From Sinimarinibacterium arenosum (lineage in GTDB: Bacteria; Pseudomonadota; Gammaproteobacteria; Nevskiales; Nevskiaceae), in NCBI RefSeq assembly GCF_005047655.1, contig NZ_SUKF01000001.1, positions 546,745 through 610,744 on the forward strand: a stretch of 64,000 nt of DNA, given 5' to 3'. Position 1 is the first letter of the stretch. The number at the start of each line of letters is the position of its first letter. Both the position numbers and the translations under genes were made by a program. The notes below the pieces were generated by a model. It was not told where the DNA came from. It did not search any database and saw only the letters and a program-made list of their open reading frames with translations. Below are positions 52,381-60,258 of the stretch, piece by piece.

Positions 52381-53250
52381 TCAGCCTAGGCCGCTGACGC
52401 GGAAATATGCGGACTGAATCTGTTGGCCGTAGACCATGGCCAACCAGCCCGCTGCTGCCAGATAGGGGCCAAACGGGATCGGTACTTGCCGATCGTGCCG
52501 ACGAAAAACGACCAGCCCGATGCCAATCGTTGCCCCAACCAGTGATGACAGCAGAATCACCATCGGCAACGCCTGCCAGCCCAGCCAGGCTCCGAGGGCG
52601 GCGAGCAGCTTGAAGTCGCCGTAGCCCATGCCTTCCTTGCCGGTCACCAGGCGGAACAGGTGGAATACCGCCCACAGACTCAGATATCCGGCCATGGCAC
52701 CGATAATCGCGGTTTCAGGCGCGACGAATACAGGAACCAAGCTCGCGGCCAGGCCCAGCCACAGCAGCGGCAAGGTCAGGTCATCGGGCAGTAGCTGGGT
52801 GTGCAAATCGATCAACGCCAAGGCCAGCAGCATCCACGTGATGATCAGCGCCGCAGCCAGTTGGGGCCCCCAGCCGAAGTGCCACGCACAGAGACCTGCC
52901 AGCACTCCTGAGGCAGCCTCCACCAGCGGGTATTGCACTGAAATTGGCGCGCGGCAGGCGGCACAGCGGCCGCGGAGCAGCATCCAGCTGATGATCGGAA
53001 CGTTCTGCCACGGCCTGATGGGTGCCGAGCACGAGGGGCAGCGCGACGCCGGTCGGACCAACGAAATGCGCTCCTCGGAGACCGGAGCGAGTTCCAGAAT
53101 CTCCCGAGCTTCGCGGCGCCAGCTTTGCTCCAGCATGCGTGGAACCCGCAGGATCACGACATTCAGAAAGCTGCCGACGAGCAAGCCCAACACGACAGTA
53201 CAGGCGAGCAGAAGGGCGGGGCTGTCGCGCAGCCCGTCAAGTAAGGTCAT
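52381..53250 (-). CDS. pilD: Prepilin peptidase/N-methyltransferase PilD
   Basis: Inner-membrane aspartic protease (289 aa, about eight helices) that cleaves type IV prepilins after glycine and methylates the new N-terminus. Cytoplasmic zinc motif C71, C74, C96 and C99 (CPSCSAPIRPW, CAACRAP); catalytic aspartates D148 (LIDLHTQLLPD) and D212 (GMGYGDFK). Substrates should include PilA encoded at 59.8 kb. It follows pilC on the same strand. Confidence 0.97.
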   Translation of the reverse strand: MTLLDGLRDSPALLLACTVVLGLLVGSFLNVVILRVPRMLEQSWRREAREILELAPVSEERISLVRPASRCPSCSAPIRPWQNVPIISWMLLRGRCAACRAPISVQYPLVEAASGVLAGLCAWHFGWGPQLAAALIITWMLLALALIDLHTQLLPDDLTLPLLWLGLAASLVPVFVAPETAIIGAMAGYLSLWAVFHLFRLVTGKEGMGYGDFKLLAALGAWLGWQALPMVILLSSLVGATIGIGLVVFRRHDRQVPIPFGPYLAAAGWLAMVYGQQIQSAYFRVSGLG

Positions 53251-53273
53251 ACCGGCAAATTTCGCCTTCTTAT

Positions 53274-54500
53274 TTAGATTGCTTGGCCGATCTTAAAGAT
53301 TGGCAAGTACATTGCTACGACCAATCCGCCTACAAGAACGCCAAGAATTACCATGATCATTGGCTCCAGTAGGCTGGATAGTGCATCGACGAGGTTGTCG
53401 ACCTCGGCTTCGTAAAAATCGGCCACCTTTGCGCACATCGCGTCGAGAGATCCGGATTCTTCACCAATGGCGACCATTTGGGTTGCCATATTCGGGAACA
53501 GGCCGGATTGCTGCATGGTCAATTGAAGCTGTTGCCCAGTTGATACTTGGTCGCGCATGACCAAAATCGCATCGGTAAATACAATATTGCCTGCGGCCTT
53601 TGCTACTGGCTCCATGGCTTCGACAAGCGGGACGCCCGCTGCGAACATGGTTGATAGAGTGCGTGCGAATCGGGCGACTGCCGATTTATAAAGAATGTCG
53701 CCGACCACTGGAACTTTTAGCATTATCCGGTCAAGAAAGCGTCGGAAGGTCGCTGATCGCTTGTGCGACTCAAGGAACGCAAAAATCGCACCGCCTACGA
53801 TGAGCAGCACCAACCACCACTTGTTCTGAACAAACTCCGAAAGACTCACAACCATTTGGGTGAATGCCGGAAGATCGGCACCAAAGCCTTCGAACAAGCT
53901 TTTGAATTGTGGCACAACAAAGTACAACAAGATGCCCGTTACTATAACGGCGACGACCATCACTGCCGCGGGATAGGTCATGGCTTTCTTAACTTTTTTC
54001 TTGATGGCTTCCGTCTTTTCTTTGTAAACCGCAATTTTGTCGAGCAGCGCTTCCAATGTTCCGGACTTCTCTCCTGCATCAACTAGATTTACTACGAGAT
54101 CATCAAAATGGAGCGGAAATTTTTTCAGCGCTTCAGTGAATGAGGCGCCTCCTTCGATGTGGCCCTTGATCGCCATGATCATTTCACCCATGCTGGGATT
54201 TTCATGGCCGCGCCCCACGATTTCGAGCGACTGAACCAAGGGGACTCCAGCCGCCATCATAGTTGCCATTTGGCGTAAGAAGATCGCGATATCACCAGAA
54301 GTGATCTTCCGTTTTCTCGGTGCGAGCAATGTTGATTGCTTGCGAACGGAAATCGGATTGATGCCCTGCTTGCGCAGCTGCATCTTGATGAAGTGGTCCG
54401 ATGGCCCCCCAGACGTTCCCTTGACGCGGTTGCCCTTGCGATCCGTACCTTCCCACTTGAAGGTATATTCCTTGACTGCCGCCGTTGCTGCTGTCGCCAT
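53274..54500 (-). CDS. pilC: Type IV pilus inner-membrane platform protein PilC
   Basis: Polytopic platform protein (408 aa) with two GspF/PilC domains, coupling the PilB motor to pilin assembly. The opening YTFKWEGTDRKGNRVKG, RKQSTLLAPRKRKI, FLRQMATMMAAGVPLVQSLE and the second-domain counterpart FARTLSTMFAAGVPLVEAME show the internal duplication. Base composition is lower in GC than upstream chromosomal genes (29 of 60 in a sampled line at 53941). Confidence 0.97.
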   Translation of the reverse strand: MATAATAAVKEYTFKWEGTDRKGNRVKGTSGGPSDHFIKMQLRKQGINPISVRKQSTLLAPRKRKITSGDIAIFLRQMATMMAAGVPLVQSLEIVGRGHENPSMGEMIMAIKGHIEGGASFTEALKKFPLHFDDLVVNLVDAGEKSGTLEALLDKIAVYKEKTEAIKKKVKKAMTYPAAVMVVAVIVTGILLYFVVPQFKSLFEGFGADLPAFTQMVVSLSEFVQNKWWLVLLIVGGAIFAFLESHKRSATFRRFLDRIMLKVPVVGDILYKSAVARFARTLSTMFAAGVPLVEAMEPVAKAAGNIVFTDAILVMRDQVSTGQQLQLTMQQSGLFPNMATQMVAIGEESGSLDAMCAKVADFYEAEVDNLVDALSSLLEPMIMVILGVLVGGLVVAMYLPIFKIGQAI

Positions 54501-54526: not shown

Positions 54527-56260
54527 CTATTCGCCCATGGTACAGGCGTTGGCCTGCAGTAAATCAATGACGCCGTGGCGCACTTTCTTCAGTGCGGACT
54601 GTCGAAGATCGGCGACACCTTCCTTCTTGGCCTGGTCCGCGATTTCGATGGCACTGCCGCCTTCCATGATGATGCGTCCCATTTCGTCTGAAAATGGCAT
54701 GACCTGATAAATACCTGTGCGGCCTTTGTAGCCGCTGTCACACTGATCACAGCCCACCGCTTCAAAGATGGTGAAATCCGACGCAGAGAGTTCTTCCTCG
54801 GTAAACCCTTGTTTAATCAACTCTGCTTTCGGAATGCTCGCCGGCCGTTTGCAGCTGCTGCACAACTTGCGCGCCAACCGCTGGGCGATGATCAGGCTCA
54901 GCGTGGAAGCGATGTTGTATGCCGGTACGCCCATGTTCATCAGACGCACAATCGTCTGCGGGGCGTCATTCGTATGCAAGGTCGAGAGGACCAAATGGCC
55001 GGTTTGAGCGGCTTTAATGGCAATTTCGGCTGTTTCCAGGTCGCGAATTTCGCCAACCATGATGATGTCAGGATCCTGGCGGAGGAACGCTTTCAGCGCT
55101 GCTGCGAAGGTGAGTCCGACCCTGGGATTGACGTTGACCTGATTGATGCCTGGCAAGTTAATTTCAGCCGGATCCTCGGCTGTGGAAATATTCGCATCCT
55201 CGGTATTCAGGATGTTCAGCCCGGTATAGAGCGAAACGGTCTTGCCTGACCCGGTCGGTCCCGTGACCAGAATCATTCCTTGGGGGCGGTCCAGGGCTTT
55301 CATGAACTCCGCTTTCTGCTCAGGCTCGTAGCCCAATGCATCAATTCCGAGCTTGGCGCTGGACGGGTCCAGAATACGGCAGACGATTTTTTCACCGAAA
55401 AGCGTCGGGCAGGAACTTACACGGAAGTCGATGGCGCGAGTCTTGGAAATATAGAGTTTGATTCGGCCGTCCTGGGGGACGCGCCGTTCCGCGAGATCCA
55501 GTCGCGACATCACTTTGACGCGAGCAGCCAAGCGGCCGGCTTGGCTGACTGGAGGCGTGGCAATAGTTTTCAGCTCGCCGTCACGCCGATACCGGATGCG
55601 GTATGTCTTTTCATATGGCTCGAAGTGAATATCAGACGCTCCCTGATTGATGGCATCGACCATGATTTTATTGACATAACGAATGATCGGTGCATCTTCA
55701 GCATCCGCTCGAGTAACATCGTGCCCGCCACCTTCCTCGCCACCTTCGGAAATTTCCAGGTTCTCGAGATCCTCGTCGCCGAGATCCATCTGCTGAGATT
55801 CCGCTGCGGTTGCAGCGACATCAATGGCCCGGATCAGCTTGTCTTCGGTGACCAGAACGGATTCAGTCTGGCACCCAGTGGCAAATTTGATTTCGTCCAG
55901 GGCCTGTAAATTTGTCGGATCGGAAACTGCGACATAGATCTTTTTTCCGCGCTGGAATATCGGAAGCGCGTGGACCTTGCGAAGGACTCGTTCGCTGACC
56001 TGGCGTGCGATTTCCGGATCGATCTCGACTGCGCCCAAATCGATGAGGGGTGCTCCAAACTCCTGGCTTGCGGCCTCTGCGATGGCACTTGGTGTGACGA
56101 TCTTGGATTCAACCAGGAGGGACACCAACGGCTTGCCGCCCTTGAGGGACTTCTGCTGCACGTCGCGCGCCTGATCCTCTGTGAGGAGCTTGTCAGCGAC
56201 GAGACGTCGTGCCAAGCCTCCAAGGAACGAAGGATTGACGGGTTGCTGTCCTGTTGCCAT
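54527..56260 (-). CDS. pilB: Type IV pilus extension ATPase PilB
   Basis: Hexameric GspE/PilB motor (577 aa) driving pilus extension. The N-terminal MshEN/T2SSE domain (about 15-150) is followed by the GASDIHFEPYE box (207-217), Walker A GPTGSGKT (334-341), and a tetracysteine zinc motif made of CSSCKRP and CDQCDSGYKGRTG. The start MATGQQP at 56260 is chosen as the fold begins soon after; an in-frame ATG-free extension to 56326 is possible. AGGA lies upstream but 14 bases away. Confidence 0.95.
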   Translation of the reverse strand: MATGQQPVNPSFLGGLARRLVADKLLTEDQARDVQQKSLKGGKPLVSLLVESKIVTPSAIAEAASQEFGAPLIDLGAVEIDPEIARQVSERVLRKVHALPIFQRGKKIYVAVSDPTNLQALDEIKFATGCQTESVLVTEDKLIRAIDVAATAAESQQMDLGDEDLENLEISEGGEEGGGHDVTRADAEDAPIIRYVNKIMVDAINQGASDIHFEPYEKTYRIRYRRDGELKTIATPPVSQAGRLAARVKVMSRLDLAERRVPQDGRIKLYISKTRAIDFRVSSCPTLFGEKIVCRILDPSSAKLGIDALGYEPEQKAEFMKALDRPQGMILVTGPTGSGKTVSLYTGLNILNTEDANISTAEDPAEINLPGINQVNVNPRVGLTFAAALKAFLRQDPDIIMVGEIRDLETAEIAIKAAQTGHLVLSTLHTNDAPQTIVRLMNMGVPAYNIASTLSLIIAQRLARKLCSSCKRPASIPKAELIKQGFTEEELSASDFTIFEAVGCDQCDSGYKGRTGIYQVMPFSDEMGRIIMEGGSAIEIADQAKKEGVADLRQSALKKVRHGVIDLLQANACTMGE

Positions 56261-56471
56261 GTTTGTTGACGCGTTCCTGACGCCTAGGTATACGGTGACT
56301 CTAAGCAGGCCATGGGCAAGCGTCAATTCGGGTCTTTATCCCTGATGATGTCAGTCTGAAGGGACGTCAAAAATGTTTTTTCTCGCGAATTGGTGCTCCG
56401 CAGGTTCCGGCGCACTGGTACTACGTGGCGAATTAAATATATAGAAAGCGCGACACTTGGAAGGCCCATCA

Positions 56472-57734
56472 ATGAATTCATTAGGAATGGAGGCCGCAGC
56501 ATTGGGGCGATCGCCTGCGCCGCTTCGGATCACCATTGCCAGCGGTTTGCTCTGGCTGGCGGTCGTCTTGCCAGTTATTGGAACTGTCTGGCTTGGTAGC
56601 GTAAGCACAAACGATTTTGCAGCTGCGCTGCAGTTTGCATTTGTGCTAGTCATGGCGCCAGAAGCGGCGATAGAGCTTAAGCATGCTTGGTCGTTCAGGG
56701 TCATGCGTATCGCAGCGTTTGCGTCAATGCTCTGCATGGCATCTTGGCACTTTTTCCAGGGGCCATTTCTGGCAATTCCCAGAAGCAGCGACTATCTCGT
56801 GCTTATTCTGTTCGCAGCCGCAGCGGTAGGCTGGTTCCGTCAAGTGAAGGATACGGGATTTGAGTGGGTTTTCCGCGCCAAGGCGGTCGCTTTGGTGGTC
56901 GCGATGGTATGGATCGGGCTGACATGGTGGCTGCTTGACGACACAGCCGACGGGCAAAGGATTTTTCGACATACACCGATATACCGGCATGTTCGACATC
57001 TCAGCTACGACCTATTTGCAGTGACAGCGCTGGCAATTTATTTCAGCTCTGTTGCTCCGACCAAGACGCGCTGGCAGTTTGCCCTATTATTTTTGGCTTT
57101 GGGCTATCTCACTACTTGGTCGGCTGGGCGTGGGGGCATGCTCGCTCTTGCTGTTTTTGTTGCTGTGCTTGTTGCCTCCAGCAAGCGTGAGTTCTGGGGG
57201 GGGCGGAATCTACTTCCATTCGGGTTCTTTTTGCTCGGATGCCTGCTGACGACGCTGGATGGCAATGCCGACCGACTGGCGATGCGAGTTGACCAAACTC
57301 TTTCAGGATCGGTAAATCACATCTCTTCCGGAAGGATTGGCATCTGGACCGGCAGCCTCGAACGGCTGATGCAGTCAACCCCAGCAGTTTTTTTTGGATA
57401 CGGGCCGGATGCGTTACTTCGGCTCGGAATTCCAGCAAACTTGCCCGGCAACGGCGGAATCGTGCAGCCACACAGCGCCATCATTCAATGGTTGCTTGAG
57501 TTTGGCGTCGTGGGGACATTGGCCATTGTTGGTGTTTTGGCTACATCTTGCAGGCAGGCACTGGGGGTGCTAGCCGGTAATTCGGAGCTCAGTTCGCAAA
57601 AGACCGCTGCGGCATTGCTGCTGGCACTGCTGGTGTACGCATTGGTCGACGGAATTTTCTACCACGCGATACCCCTAACCCTTGTCGTGCTGACCTGCGC
57701 CTATCTGGCCGCGCAGCAAGGCCGGCGGCGCTGA
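56472..57734 (+). CDS. O-antigen ligase/PglL-like membrane protein, possible pilin glycosylase
   Basis: A 420-residue polytopic protein (about 11 hydrophobic segments) with the Wzy_C/O-antigen-ligase pattern: a WSAGRGGMLAL arginine motif (217-227), the SSGRIGIW segment, and a late periplasmic loop PHSAIIQWLLEFGVVG (333-348) with H334, where ligases and pilin oligosaccharyltransferases usually carry His-Asn. GGAAGG seven bases before the ATG sets the start. It runs opposite to all pil genes, between pilB and pilA, and its last 60 bases overlap the end of the sulfatase-type gene. O-glycosylation of PilA (TfpO/PilO-like) is inference from location and family. Confidence 0.75.
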   Translation: MNSLGMEAAALGRSPAPLRITIASGLLWLAVVLPVIGTVWLGSVSTNDFAAALQFAFVLVMAPEAAIELKHAWSFRVMRIAAFASMLCMASWHFFQGPFLAIPRSSDYLVLILFAAAAVGWFRQVKDTGFEWVFRAKAVALVVAMVWIGLTWWLLDDTADGQRIFRHTPIYRHVRHLSYDLFAVTALAIYFSSVAPTKTRWQFALLFLALGYLTTWSAGRGGMLALAVFVAVLVASSKREFWGGRNLLPFGFFLLGCLLTTLDGNADRLAMRVDQTLSGSVNHISSGRIGIWTGSLERLMQSTPAVFFGYGPDALLRLGIPANLPGNGGIVQPHSAIIQWLLEFGVVGTLAIVGVLATSCRQALGVLAGNSELSSQKTAAALLLALLVYALVDGIFYHAIPLTLVVLTCAYLAAQQGRRR

Positions 57735-59762
57735 ATAAGGCATCGAATCGCACCATGCCTCAATTCGGGGGCGCATGTCAGGATTCTTACAGGCAGCCTC
57801 AAGCAGCGGTGGGTTCTCGACGCCAGCAGGTCTCACGTCGACTGGATAGACATCCCAATTGGGGCCATTTGCAAAGACCAGTTGAGGTTCTGGACCGTTA
57901 CGCATTAGAGCAAGTACGCGCTGTCCGTCAGTTACGCCGTAGTCCTTCAGATTAGTCGCTTGTCGAAGCGCGGTCTGCTTCATTTCCAGGCGGCCATCCT
58001 CAGTAATATCGTATGTGCTCTCAGCAATTCGTAGAGCAGCATCTCCGTCTGGATGAGTCAGATTAAATCCTTTTGGCGTAAAGCCCGTTTCGATTTCAAC
58101 CTCGGTTCGAATTCTGCCTATAGGCGCCTTGTTAGTTCCTATCGTTTTGAAGACGACATCTGGCGTCACTCCATCGAGTGCTGTTTGGATAGGAATTCCC
58201 GCAAGAGCTTCAAGTGCTATCGGCAAATCCTGTAGCGAGAGTAGTTGATCTGACTGCCCAGGTGGAATCTTTCCGGCGACCGACCGGCCGCTAAACATGA
58301 AGAATACCTGCCATTGAATTGCATCCAGTAGTGTCCCTCCGTGCCCGCCCATCTGCGGTGTGACCGGGTGCCGCGCTCCATAAAGCGTTTGTTGGACTTT
58401 TGATCCATTACTAGATGGCTGGAGTCCTTCGCCATGATCAGCAAGCAAGACGACGATGGTATTTTTGTTGATATAGTTCAGCACCTCTAAAGCTTGATGG
58501 AGCTCATTCAGCTGATCATCCAACACCCTGGTGGAGTTGTAGTACGAGCTTCCGGGAGTCTCGTCCATGGAGGAGTGGTAAGGCCAATGAGCGAGACACA
58601 GATGTATCGCAATAAACGTTGGCCGATTCCCTGCCGGTCCGATTGCCGCTTTCAGGCGTCTAATAAATCGCGAGGGTCGGTATGCCTGGGAAAATGCCCG
58701 ATTCCCAACCAGCGACGGGAAAAGGAATTCGGCTCCTGGCGCTTGAATCGCGAGATTGATCAGTGGCTGGTCTCCGAATTGTCCTAGCAGGAAGTCGGAC
58801 ACGCCCGGAAGCGGGCTAACGACCTGATCGAAGCCAAACTTCTCTTCAATATTGCTGAATCTAGTTTCGTCCGTTGCATAAATGGTTCGGTATCCATGCT
58901 GGCGGAAATTCCACGCTACGCTGCTTTTGCCTGCATTGCCTGCAGTAACGAGATTTCCTCGAATACCTGAATCACGGGCGGACTTCCCAGTCAGCATTGT
59001 TACCCATGCTGGGAATGTGCGTGCTAGCGGTGAAACAACATTGCTTTGCACAAAAGAATTACGGCGTAGCCTCTGCAGCGTTGGCATCTGCACCGGATCG
59101 TCCGACAGCGCGACATCGCGGCGTAGTGAGTCCAATCCGATGACTACGACGTTGGGCTGATTGCGCTGGGAGGCGTATGCACTTTGTGTGGGTGTTGAAA
59201 ATCGCGCGCTTATAGTTCCGTAAAGTGTCGCGCCGACAACAATAATCATAAGAAGGGAGACGCGCATTGATGGCATGGACCGATGCCACCGCATAGTTCG
59301 AATAGATGCGTGGGTTCGTAACCCAATTCGCCAGGACGTCCAAACTATGCATGCAAAATCGAGTACAAGCGCAGAATTTTGTTGAGTTATGGGTTCAATT
59401 GCCCATGCCCAGACTGAACCAGGAAACCAAAGCTGGTTCCACCTGAGGATCAGCCAACTAACCGCAGTCCAGGTTGCGATTACGAGAGCAACCGGGCGGG
59501 TCGAACTTCTGTTAAAACTATTGCTTGGGCGGGAAAGTTGTGCAATTACCCAGAAATACGCGCCATACAGGGCAAGCGCAAAGATGATCTGCGAGCCGAA
59601 ATCAATAAAGGCGTGTGGCTGTGAGACGAAGGTATTCCAGGCAAAGCCTGCGGCTTTTGTGCTATCCAGTTGAATCGAAAAACTTGTGCTTGCTAGGGCC
59701 CAGTGCGCATATGCGGATATCGCTACAAGTAACAACAGCGTTGTGCGTTGATGTAATGTCAT
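57675..59762 (-). CDS. Membrane-anchored sulfatase-superfamily protein (possible phospho-group transferase)
   Basis: A 695-residue protein with about five N-terminal membrane segments (residues 8-25, 55-75, 90-107, 115-145, 167-185) and a periplasmic alkaline-phosphatase/sulfatase-fold domain from about 203. Metal and active-site candidates are D211 (VVVIGLDSLRRD), D442-H443 (LLADHGEGL) and H474 (MGGHGGTLL). At the nucleophile position the sequence is LARTFPAWVTMLTGK with T249 and no C-x-P-x-R sulfatase motif, which suggests a phosphoethanolamine/phosphoglycerol-type transferase rather than a sulfatase. The pilA terminator separates it from pilA. GC is low (48% in the line at 58081). Confidence 0.75.
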   Translation of the reverse strand: MTLHQRTTLLLLVAISAYAHWALASTSFSIQLDSTKAAGFAWNTFVSQPHAFIDFGSQIIFALALYGAYFWVIAQLSRPSNSFNRSSTRPVALVIATWTAVSWLILRWNQLWFPGSVWAWAIEPITQQNSALVLDFACIVWTSWRIGLRTHASIRTMRWHRSMPSMRVSLLMIIVVGATLYGTISARFSTPTQSAYASQRNQPNVVVIGLDSLRRDVALSDDPVQMPTLQRLRRNSFVQSNVVSPLARTFPAWVTMLTGKSARDSGIRGNLVTAGNAGKSSVAWNFRQHGYRTIYATDETRFSNIEEKFGFDQVVSPLPGVSDFLLGQFGDQPLINLAIQAPGAEFLFPSLVGNRAFSQAYRPSRFIRRLKAAIGPAGNRPTFIAIHLCLAHWPYHSSMDETPGSSYYNSTRVLDDQLNELHQALEVLNYINKNTIVVLLADHGEGLQPSSNGSKVQQTLYGARHPVTPQMGGHGGTLLDAIQWQVFFMFSGRSVAGKIPPGQSDQLLSLQDLPIALEALAGIPIQTALDGVTPDVVFKTIGTNKAPIGRIRTEVEIETGFTPKGFNLTHPDGDAALRIAESTYDITEDGRLEMKQTALRQATNLKDYGVTDGQRVLALMRNGPEPQLVFANGPNWDVYPVDVRPAGVENPPLLEAACKNPDMRPRIEAWCDSMPYSAPPALLRGQIGAGQHDKG

Positions 59763-59784
59763 GCCGTGCGCGCAGGCTCAAATG

Positions 59785-59809
59785 AAGACGCCGCCAAAGT
59801 GGCGGCGTC
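59785..59809 (-). terminator. pilA terminator
   Basis: On the minus strand GACGCCGCC, five-base loop ACTTT, GGCGGCGTC and then TTCATTT, 36 bases after the pilA stop. It should limit read-through into the sulfatase-type gene. Confidence 0.85.
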
Positions 59810-59844
59810 CAAACTGCTAGACAGAGTAACTGCCAAGCATCATC

Positions 59845-60258
59845 TTAGACACGGCACTCGGCCGGGACATACTTATTATTTGCAGCATCCGAAACTTCGC
59901 AGAGCCATGCGATACCTGCCGAGACAGTGCTAGGTGTGTAGGTTAGGACAACACTTTTCGCGGCAGCTGTGCCGGTGACCGTAATCACTCCACTGGCGCA
60001 TGCCAGTGAGGCTGCATTCTTGGTGGCAGTCGAAAAAGTATTGACGCCGTTGCAGGCGGTGGCGTCGATCGTTCCGCCGCCATTTGCAATGTTCTCACCA
60101 ATGGTGGCTTTTGCACCTGACGCCATCACGGCGAGCTCGGAGACGCGTGCGCGCACCGTGTAATCCTGATACGCCGGCAGCGCGATGGCGGCCAGAATGC
60201 CGATGATGGCGACGACGATCATCAGTTCGATCAGGGTAAAGCCTTGCTGCTTCTTCAT
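59845..60258 (-). CDS. pilA: Type IV major pilin PilA
   Basis: Type IVa prepilin (137 aa) with leader MKKQQG, cleavage before F7, the conserved Glu at mature position 5 in [20 protein letters not shown] and an assembly helix. Mature length is about 131. Cysteines occur in ATACNGV, LACASG, WLCEV and near the C-terminus (AECRV); the last pair would form the D-region disulfide loop. The ATG at 60258 has GGAG seven bases upstream. Thr/Ser-rich segments in the middle could be modification sites. Driven by a sigma-54 promoter. Confidence 0.96.

Follow-up and report, generated by a model that had tools for sequence, protein, structure and literature searches.

Between pilB and pilA, the genes of the type IV pilus assembly ATPase and the major pilin, the genome of Sinimarinibacterium arenosum (assembly GCF_005047655.1) carries a gene for a Wzy_C membrane ligase and a gene for a membrane-anchored enzyme of the alkaline-phosphatase superfamily, which raises the question of what these two proteins do in a pilus locus. 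The analysis was based on a stretch of 64,000 nucleotides of contig NZ_SUKF01000001.1 (positions 546,745 to 610,744), referred to as the window, and on comparisons with other genomes (G numbers) and loci (L numbers). The most likely explanation, with a probability of roughly 0.58, is a pilin-modifying cassette, in which PilA would receive a glycan from the ligase and a phospho-containing head group from the enzyme. Its basis consists of the gene order, the conservation of the active site, the predicted folds, the recurrent proximity of the enzyme to type IV or Flp pilin genes and a pairing with the ligase in part of these loci. The recurring pilin-linked subfamily of the enzyme is a more general and more interesting result than the module itself.

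Active site and family membership of the enzyme

The enzyme is composed of N-terminal membrane helices and a catalytic domain (residues ~200-672) with D211, T249, D442, H443 and H474. The predicted fold and the metal-binding Asp/His set with the nucleophile are those of the alkaline-phosphatase superfamily. Type I sulfatases feature a Cys or Ser nucleophile (formylglycine) in the motif C/S-x-P-x-R. In the alignment with the arylsulfatase motif C-x-P-S-R, T249 takes the position of the Cys and Trp253 that of the Arg, and a sulfatase identity was ruled out due to Thr249 in place of the Cys/Ser nucleophile. The nucleophile is Thr in 39 of 40 family members (Ser in L090), including all 14 pilin-linked ones; conservation of the metal-site and nucleophile residues extends to 38-40 of the 40. 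Judged by sequence, such an active site fits phospho-group transfer. The phosphotransferase-like active site of the original prediction was retained.

The proposed kinship to PptA and EptA could not be upheld, and membership in this family was ruled out, since the EptA_B_N domain (PF08019) is missing from the enzyme. PF08019 is neither among its Pfam matches (E 0.001) nor matched anywhere in the genome (E 1e-10). A comparison of the predicted structures with PglL and PptA/EptA had been suggested as a check; EptA chains are not among the 50 matches listed for the enzyme model but may follow further down, and the ligase model has its best match in WaaL. PHROGs contained one weak match for the enzyme, without an assigned function there, and none for the ligase.

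Association of the enzyme family with pilin genes

Using profile A1 (E up to 1e-30) on 85 genomes of the order, the enzyme family was detected in four, namely the window's own genome (G000), G043, G035 and G074, in all of which the gene lies directly after pilA on the same strand. In the class sample, 20 of 369 genomes were positive with 21 matches, own included. Six of the 20 other matches are located in a pilA locus (G357, G387, G221, G327, G125 and G381) and 14 are not. Profile A7, which was built from nine linked members and so favours linked-like sequences, identified the enzyme in 4 of 398 genomes of the phylum sample, and in the new ones, G792 and G802, it is found 1-4 kb from an Flp pilin gene. 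A further 14 non-duplicate contigs yielded 12 unlinked and two linked members: in L007 the enzyme gene has two Flp pilin genes and further Flp/Tad genes as neighbours, and in L020 (Aminicenantes) it adjoins a type IV pilin-like gene, with relatives of pilC and pilB in the same locus. In total, 14 of the 40 family members (window included) are encoded near a major pilin gene, 11 of type IV and three of Flp type, and they span ten or more families and two phyla. Pilin and enzyme gene are separated by one gene in G381 and G802 and by about 5 kb in G125; in the other linked loci, apart from G792, the pilin gene is next or nearly next to the enzyme gene. A scan of 20 control loci with EptA_B_N (5.6-15.2 kb each) revealed no pilin motif. 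Thirty smaller EptA loci contained one motif match (L151), by eye not a pilin. An early single-protein scan of genome contigs gave no match.

In a tree of the 40 members, a single branch parts the 14 linked from the 26 unlinked members with moderate support (81/88). Of 200 bootstrap trees, 84% contain this branch, and not one of the 500 shuffles of the labels was as low. The first tree, for which pilins within ~1.5 kb were considered in most loci, had nine linked members among 40 rows. Larger flanks and Flp pilins were subsequently included for linked and unlinked loci alike, by which L007, L087 and L088 were relabelled; for the final tree L111 and L112 were added and duplicates dropped (L009 = L072, L015 = L075). 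The 26 unlinked rows were also scanned with wide flanks, several of these loci being cut by contig ends (e.g., L008, L113, L119, L122).

Relatives of the enzyme near pilin genes in unrelated bacteria may form a class of pilus modifiers that is perhaps so far unrecognised. The chances appear about even that they constitute a new Thr-nucleophile subfamily, independent of PptA/EptA, that is dedicated to type IVa and Flp/Tad major pilins (at least ten families, second phylum) and resides in mobile dual-modification cassettes with a TfpM-like ligase. In the available text of the open literature, no enzyme of this kind is described beside pilA among the matches listed.

Several further genes were noted in these loci. 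The Flp loci L007 and L111 contain RcpC/CpaB, accompanied by a secretin in L007 and a prepilin peptidase in L111. A large pilA island in G125 (L108 1-14000) includes two pilin-like genes, genes that by eye are PilS/PilR-like, several membrane proteins, a GT2 glycosyltransferase, the enzyme and the ligase; one of its large membrane proteins was checked and has no Pfam match. The unlinked loci L006, L008, L010, L011 and L012 have in common a gene of ~810 amino acids (aa) and a phosphoribosyltransferase-like gene (by eye).

Identity and distribution of the ligase

The ligase shares the Wzy_C domain and the predicted fold with WaaL. PglL_A and Wzy_C_2 were not found in it, PF04932 being the only match, and no NCBIfam model matches it at E 0.01. 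Its relative in G221 scores 24.6 bits with the TfpM model, a weak match given the cut-off of 600. Of the earlier description as an O-antigen-ligase/PglL-like gene, the first half agrees with Wzy_C and the WaaL fold, and the second is not supported, as the two PglL domains are missing.

Ligase profile A2 (E 1e-10) matched 4 of the 85 genomes of the order. Three matches are strong (E 1e-200 or better) and located in the pilA cassette of three of the four enzyme carriers; the fourth, in G005, is weak and also lies between pilA and pilB. In the class, 5 of 369 genomes were found, comprising the enzyme carriers G000, G221 and G125 together with G150 and G338, the latter with pilA near the ligase gene and no enzyme. 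Overall, both the enzyme and the ligase are encoded in five of the 14 linked loci (G000, G043, G035, G221 and G125), which belong to three families. The gene order in G221 is pilA, enzyme, ligase, and in G043 and G035 the ligase gene follows the enzyme gene on the same strand.

Structure of the locus and of the pilA-pilB interval

All gene positions given in the original prediction were borne out by gene calls and domain matches (Table 1). The ligase is encoded on the strand opposite to pilB, the enzyme gene and pilA, and an alternative TTG start at 56457 is also open. Between pilA and the start of the enzyme gene, both on the same strand, there are 82 bp. The hairpin between them has a folding energy of -25.3 kcal/mol (61-nt stretch) and a z value of -3.27; it was not listed by a simple terminator scan. 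T-tailed hairpins were also found after pilA in G043, G035, G074 and G357 and a weak one in G387, and none was found in G221, in a comparison without shuffle control. A promoter scan resulted in two hits versus 3.1 expected. Low G + C content was rejected as a sign of recent import: the enzyme (52.2%) and ligase (55.6%) genes lie below the window (62.7%), but so do pilC (51.0%) and pilB (55.6%), so that the values do not discriminate.

Table 1. Annotated features around the pilA-pilB interval, with positions in the window. By coordinate, the gene order is pilD(-), pilC(-), pilB(-), Wzy_C ligase(+), membrane enzyme(-), pilA(-), leuS(+).
Feature	Position	Strand	Remarks
pilC and pilD prepilin peptidase	52381..54500	-	pilC 53274-54500, pilD 52381-53250; PF00482, PF06750, PF01478
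pilB assembly ATPase	54527..56326	-	TIGR02538, 845 bits; borders cassette opposite pilA
Wzy_C / WaaL-fold membrane ligase	56472..57734	+	PF04932 Wzy_C, 46.7 bits; 420 aa from ATG 56472
Membrane-anchored alkaline-phosphatase-superfamily enzyme	57675..59762	-	695 aa; PF00884 Sulfatase, 68.9 bits
Tail-to-tail overlap of ligase and enzyme reading frames, 60 bp	57675..57734		3' ends of both genes
11-bp hairpin between pilA and enzyme gene, candidate attenuator	59786..59810	-	Tail only moderately T-rich
pilA, major type IV pilin, proposed substrate	59845..60258	-	PF00114 Pilin 48.6 bits, PF07963 45.4 bits; 137-aa precursor
leuS	from 60569	+	Beyond pilA

Within the order sample, 41 pilB loci were read (window included). 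A type IV pilin gene is present upstream of pilB within the available stretch in 17 of the 41 loci, and in 2 of these 17 the nearest one lies within 200 bp of pilB. The interval is variable across the order, and the "usual pilA-pilB adjacency" of the original prediction was overstated. A Wzy_C match is located within 10 kb of pilB in 13 of 78 genomes with a placed pilB (tables compared by hand), and G008, G052, G017 and G011 encode a larger ligase (657-673 aa) after the pilin. Ligase genes near pilA thus recur within the order, and their combination with the phospho-enzyme is less common (3 of 85 genomes). Two other intervals were recorded. In G048 (L043 3044-10223), whose PilA is 76% identical to that of the window, 6.8 kb between pilA and pilB hold a GT2 glycosyltransferase, a protein of 693 aa that matches no Pfam family, and a methyltransferase. 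In G005 (L050 3461-5266), three tandem, very similar pilin genes are followed by a Wzy_C ligase and then pilB.

Cassette behaviour, acceptor and donor

The window PilA is 76% identical to that of G035, a member of another genus, and 54-55% to that of G043 from the same genus, whereas PilB is 66% identical to G035 and 84% to G043. The enzyme tree joins the window with G035 (100/93). Because PilA and the enzyme tree favour G035 and PilB favours G043, these sequence comparisons suggest, though they do not prove, a joint movement of pilA and the enzyme gene as one cassette.

A common acceptor motif was searched for and rejected: the C-termini of 10 of the 11 linked type IV pilins were read (L020 left out), and they end in CRV, CRV, CRQQS, CRGGGGGS, CRTGGGS, CRNTT, CRATS, CRA, CRS and CR. 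The pilins of G035, G221 and G125 end in Ser, and PilA of the window in KYVPAECRV. The one PF02397 sugar-phosphate transferase of the genome is encoded in one locus together with a Wzx-type flippase and glycosyltransferases and was counted as support for a glycan donor. The same locus contains a sulfotransferase gene (L178 14093-15022).

Proposed mechanism and alternative explanations

According to the pilin-modification reading, newly made PilA would remain in the inner membrane and be modified from the periplasm, either ahead of assembly or while it proceeds. A lipid-linked glycan would be transferred onto a PilA side chain by the Wzy_C ligase. The T249 nucleophile and the metal site formed by D211, D442, H443 and H474 would take over a phospho-containing head group, for which a membrane phospholipid is the simplest source, and pass it on to PilA or, as the less favoured option, to the glycan that PilA carries. 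Reaction, donor and acceptor are what we infer here; the description of the enzyme as dedicated to one pilin reflects its gene neighbourhood. The original prediction of a pilin-modification module gained support from the linkage of the enzyme across ten or more families, from the ligase as a second linked part in five of the 14 loci and from the cassette-like locus. It had to give up membership in the PptA/EptA and PglL families and the TfpO/TfpM acceptor rule.

A number of observations weigh against this reading. Pilin modification is here a prediction from the genes, and the fold of the enzyme is common to sulfatases and to YejM/PbgA, a protein related to lipopolysaccharide (LPS). Since 26 of the 40 family members lie near no pilin gene, the wider family does something else too. 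The first tree needed four label changes, and the definition of linkage was widened afterwards; in the final tree the dividing branch reaches only 81/88, with the bootstrap not settled and an arbitrary root, and the linked rows from G792 and G802 (L111, L112) originate from a profile of linked members only. Plain enzyme identity is 42% to G035 versus 44% to G043, so that for the enzyme only the tree favours G035. Nine of the 14 linked loci (some cut by contig ends) gave no ligase match next to the enzyme, and the ligase relative in G150, a contig-end match, has no pilin gene within 8.5 kb. PilA ends in AECRV and so lacks the C-terminal Ser/Thr site of TfpO/TfpM, whose acceptor rule does not extend to it. 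Finally, the ligase is the sole Wzy_C protein of the genome and could serve LPS.

This last point leads to an explanation that is rather improbable, though it may hold for the ligase, namely that both proteins are LPS or envelope enzymes and chance residents of a variable pilA-pilB region, with the ligase acting as the WaaL of the genome. The sole Wzy_C match likewise in G043 and G035, the structural match to WaaL, the Wzx-type glycan locus elsewhere in the genome and the variability of the interval are consistent with it. On the other hand, the genus mates G042 and G045 are without a Wzy_C match and such a ligase is therefore dispensable in the genus, all A2 matches in the order lie between pilA and pilB or in a pilA cassette, and the closeness of enzyme and pilin in at least ten families is unexplained by one chance insertion. 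Slightly more probable, though still unlikely, is that only the ligase acts on PilA, and that the phospho-enzyme acts on the glycan or its lipid carrier, e.g., by adding phosphoglycerol or phosphoethanolamine to the pilin glycan. The co-occurrence of both genes in 5 of 14 linked loci points in this direction, as do the enzyme gene of G125, which lies between a GT2 glycosyltransferase gene and the ligase gene, and the next genes in G792, glycosyltransferase-like by eye. It is opposed by G327 and G387 (the latter a 6.7-kb contig), where the enzyme gene adjoins the pilin gene without a ligase match and, by eye, without a glycosyltransferase, and by G074, where no ligase match was found beside the enzyme. 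It is very improbable that the enzyme is a catalytically silent or regulatory sensor resembling YejM/PbgA that couples pilus assembly to the state of the envelope, as the near-complete conservation of the metal and nucleophile residues is what would be expected of an active enzyme.

Comparison with known systems

Most of what is known about pilin phospho-forms comes from Neisseria, whose transferase is a member of the EptA family. As far as the available text of the sources cited here goes, PptA of Neisseria transfers phosphoethanolamine or phosphocholine onto pilin (PMC10434233, PMC4010543), which is also the reaction proposed for the window enzyme. PptA, EptA/EptB and the window enzyme are all membrane proteins of the alkaline-phosphatase superfamily. 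Unlike the former, the window enzyme is without EptA_B_N, closer in sequence to the sulfatase branch and encoded near a pilin gene, which applies to none of the 20 EptA-type loci. The Flp fimbriae of Aggregatibacter are reported to carry phosphocholine (PMC10434233), comparable to the three enzyme-family members near Flp pilin genes, but the homologues there are of PptA type. If the pilin-modification reading is correct, phospho-modification of pili would be more widespread and could be found from genome context, and it may reach Tad pili via a second enzyme family. The window would also offer a paired system of glycan and phospho-form, whose interplay, seen in gonococcus (PMC4010543), would be testable in environmental bacteria.

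TfpO and TfpM are pilin-linked ligases without PglL_A and Wzy_C_2 that modify a C-terminal Ser (TfpO) or Ser/Thr (TfpM) (PMC12645811). The window ligase resembles TfpO/PilO and TfpM in its proximity to a pilin gene and in the two missing domains, and differs from TfpO/TfpM in its pilin terminus and in the missing NCBIfam match; unlike WaaL, it is encoded in a pilus locus. Pilin-accessory cassettes are described for Pseudomonas aeruginosa and others, with a terminator after pilA as their mark, and pilin glycosylation is presented as a defence against pilus-specific phages (PMC11841053). As in the P. aeruginosa cassettes (pilA with tfpO, tfpW/X, tfpY, tfpZ), which vary between strains, an accessory gene directly follows pilA in the window, here after a strong hairpin with a moderately T-rich tail that the simple scan passed over. 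No alkaline-phosphatase-superfamily enzyme is named in the available text on those cassettes, and the window ligase is inverted. Relative to the known systems, the window departs in having an enzyme from outside the EptA family beside its pilin and a PilA without C-terminal Ser/Thr.

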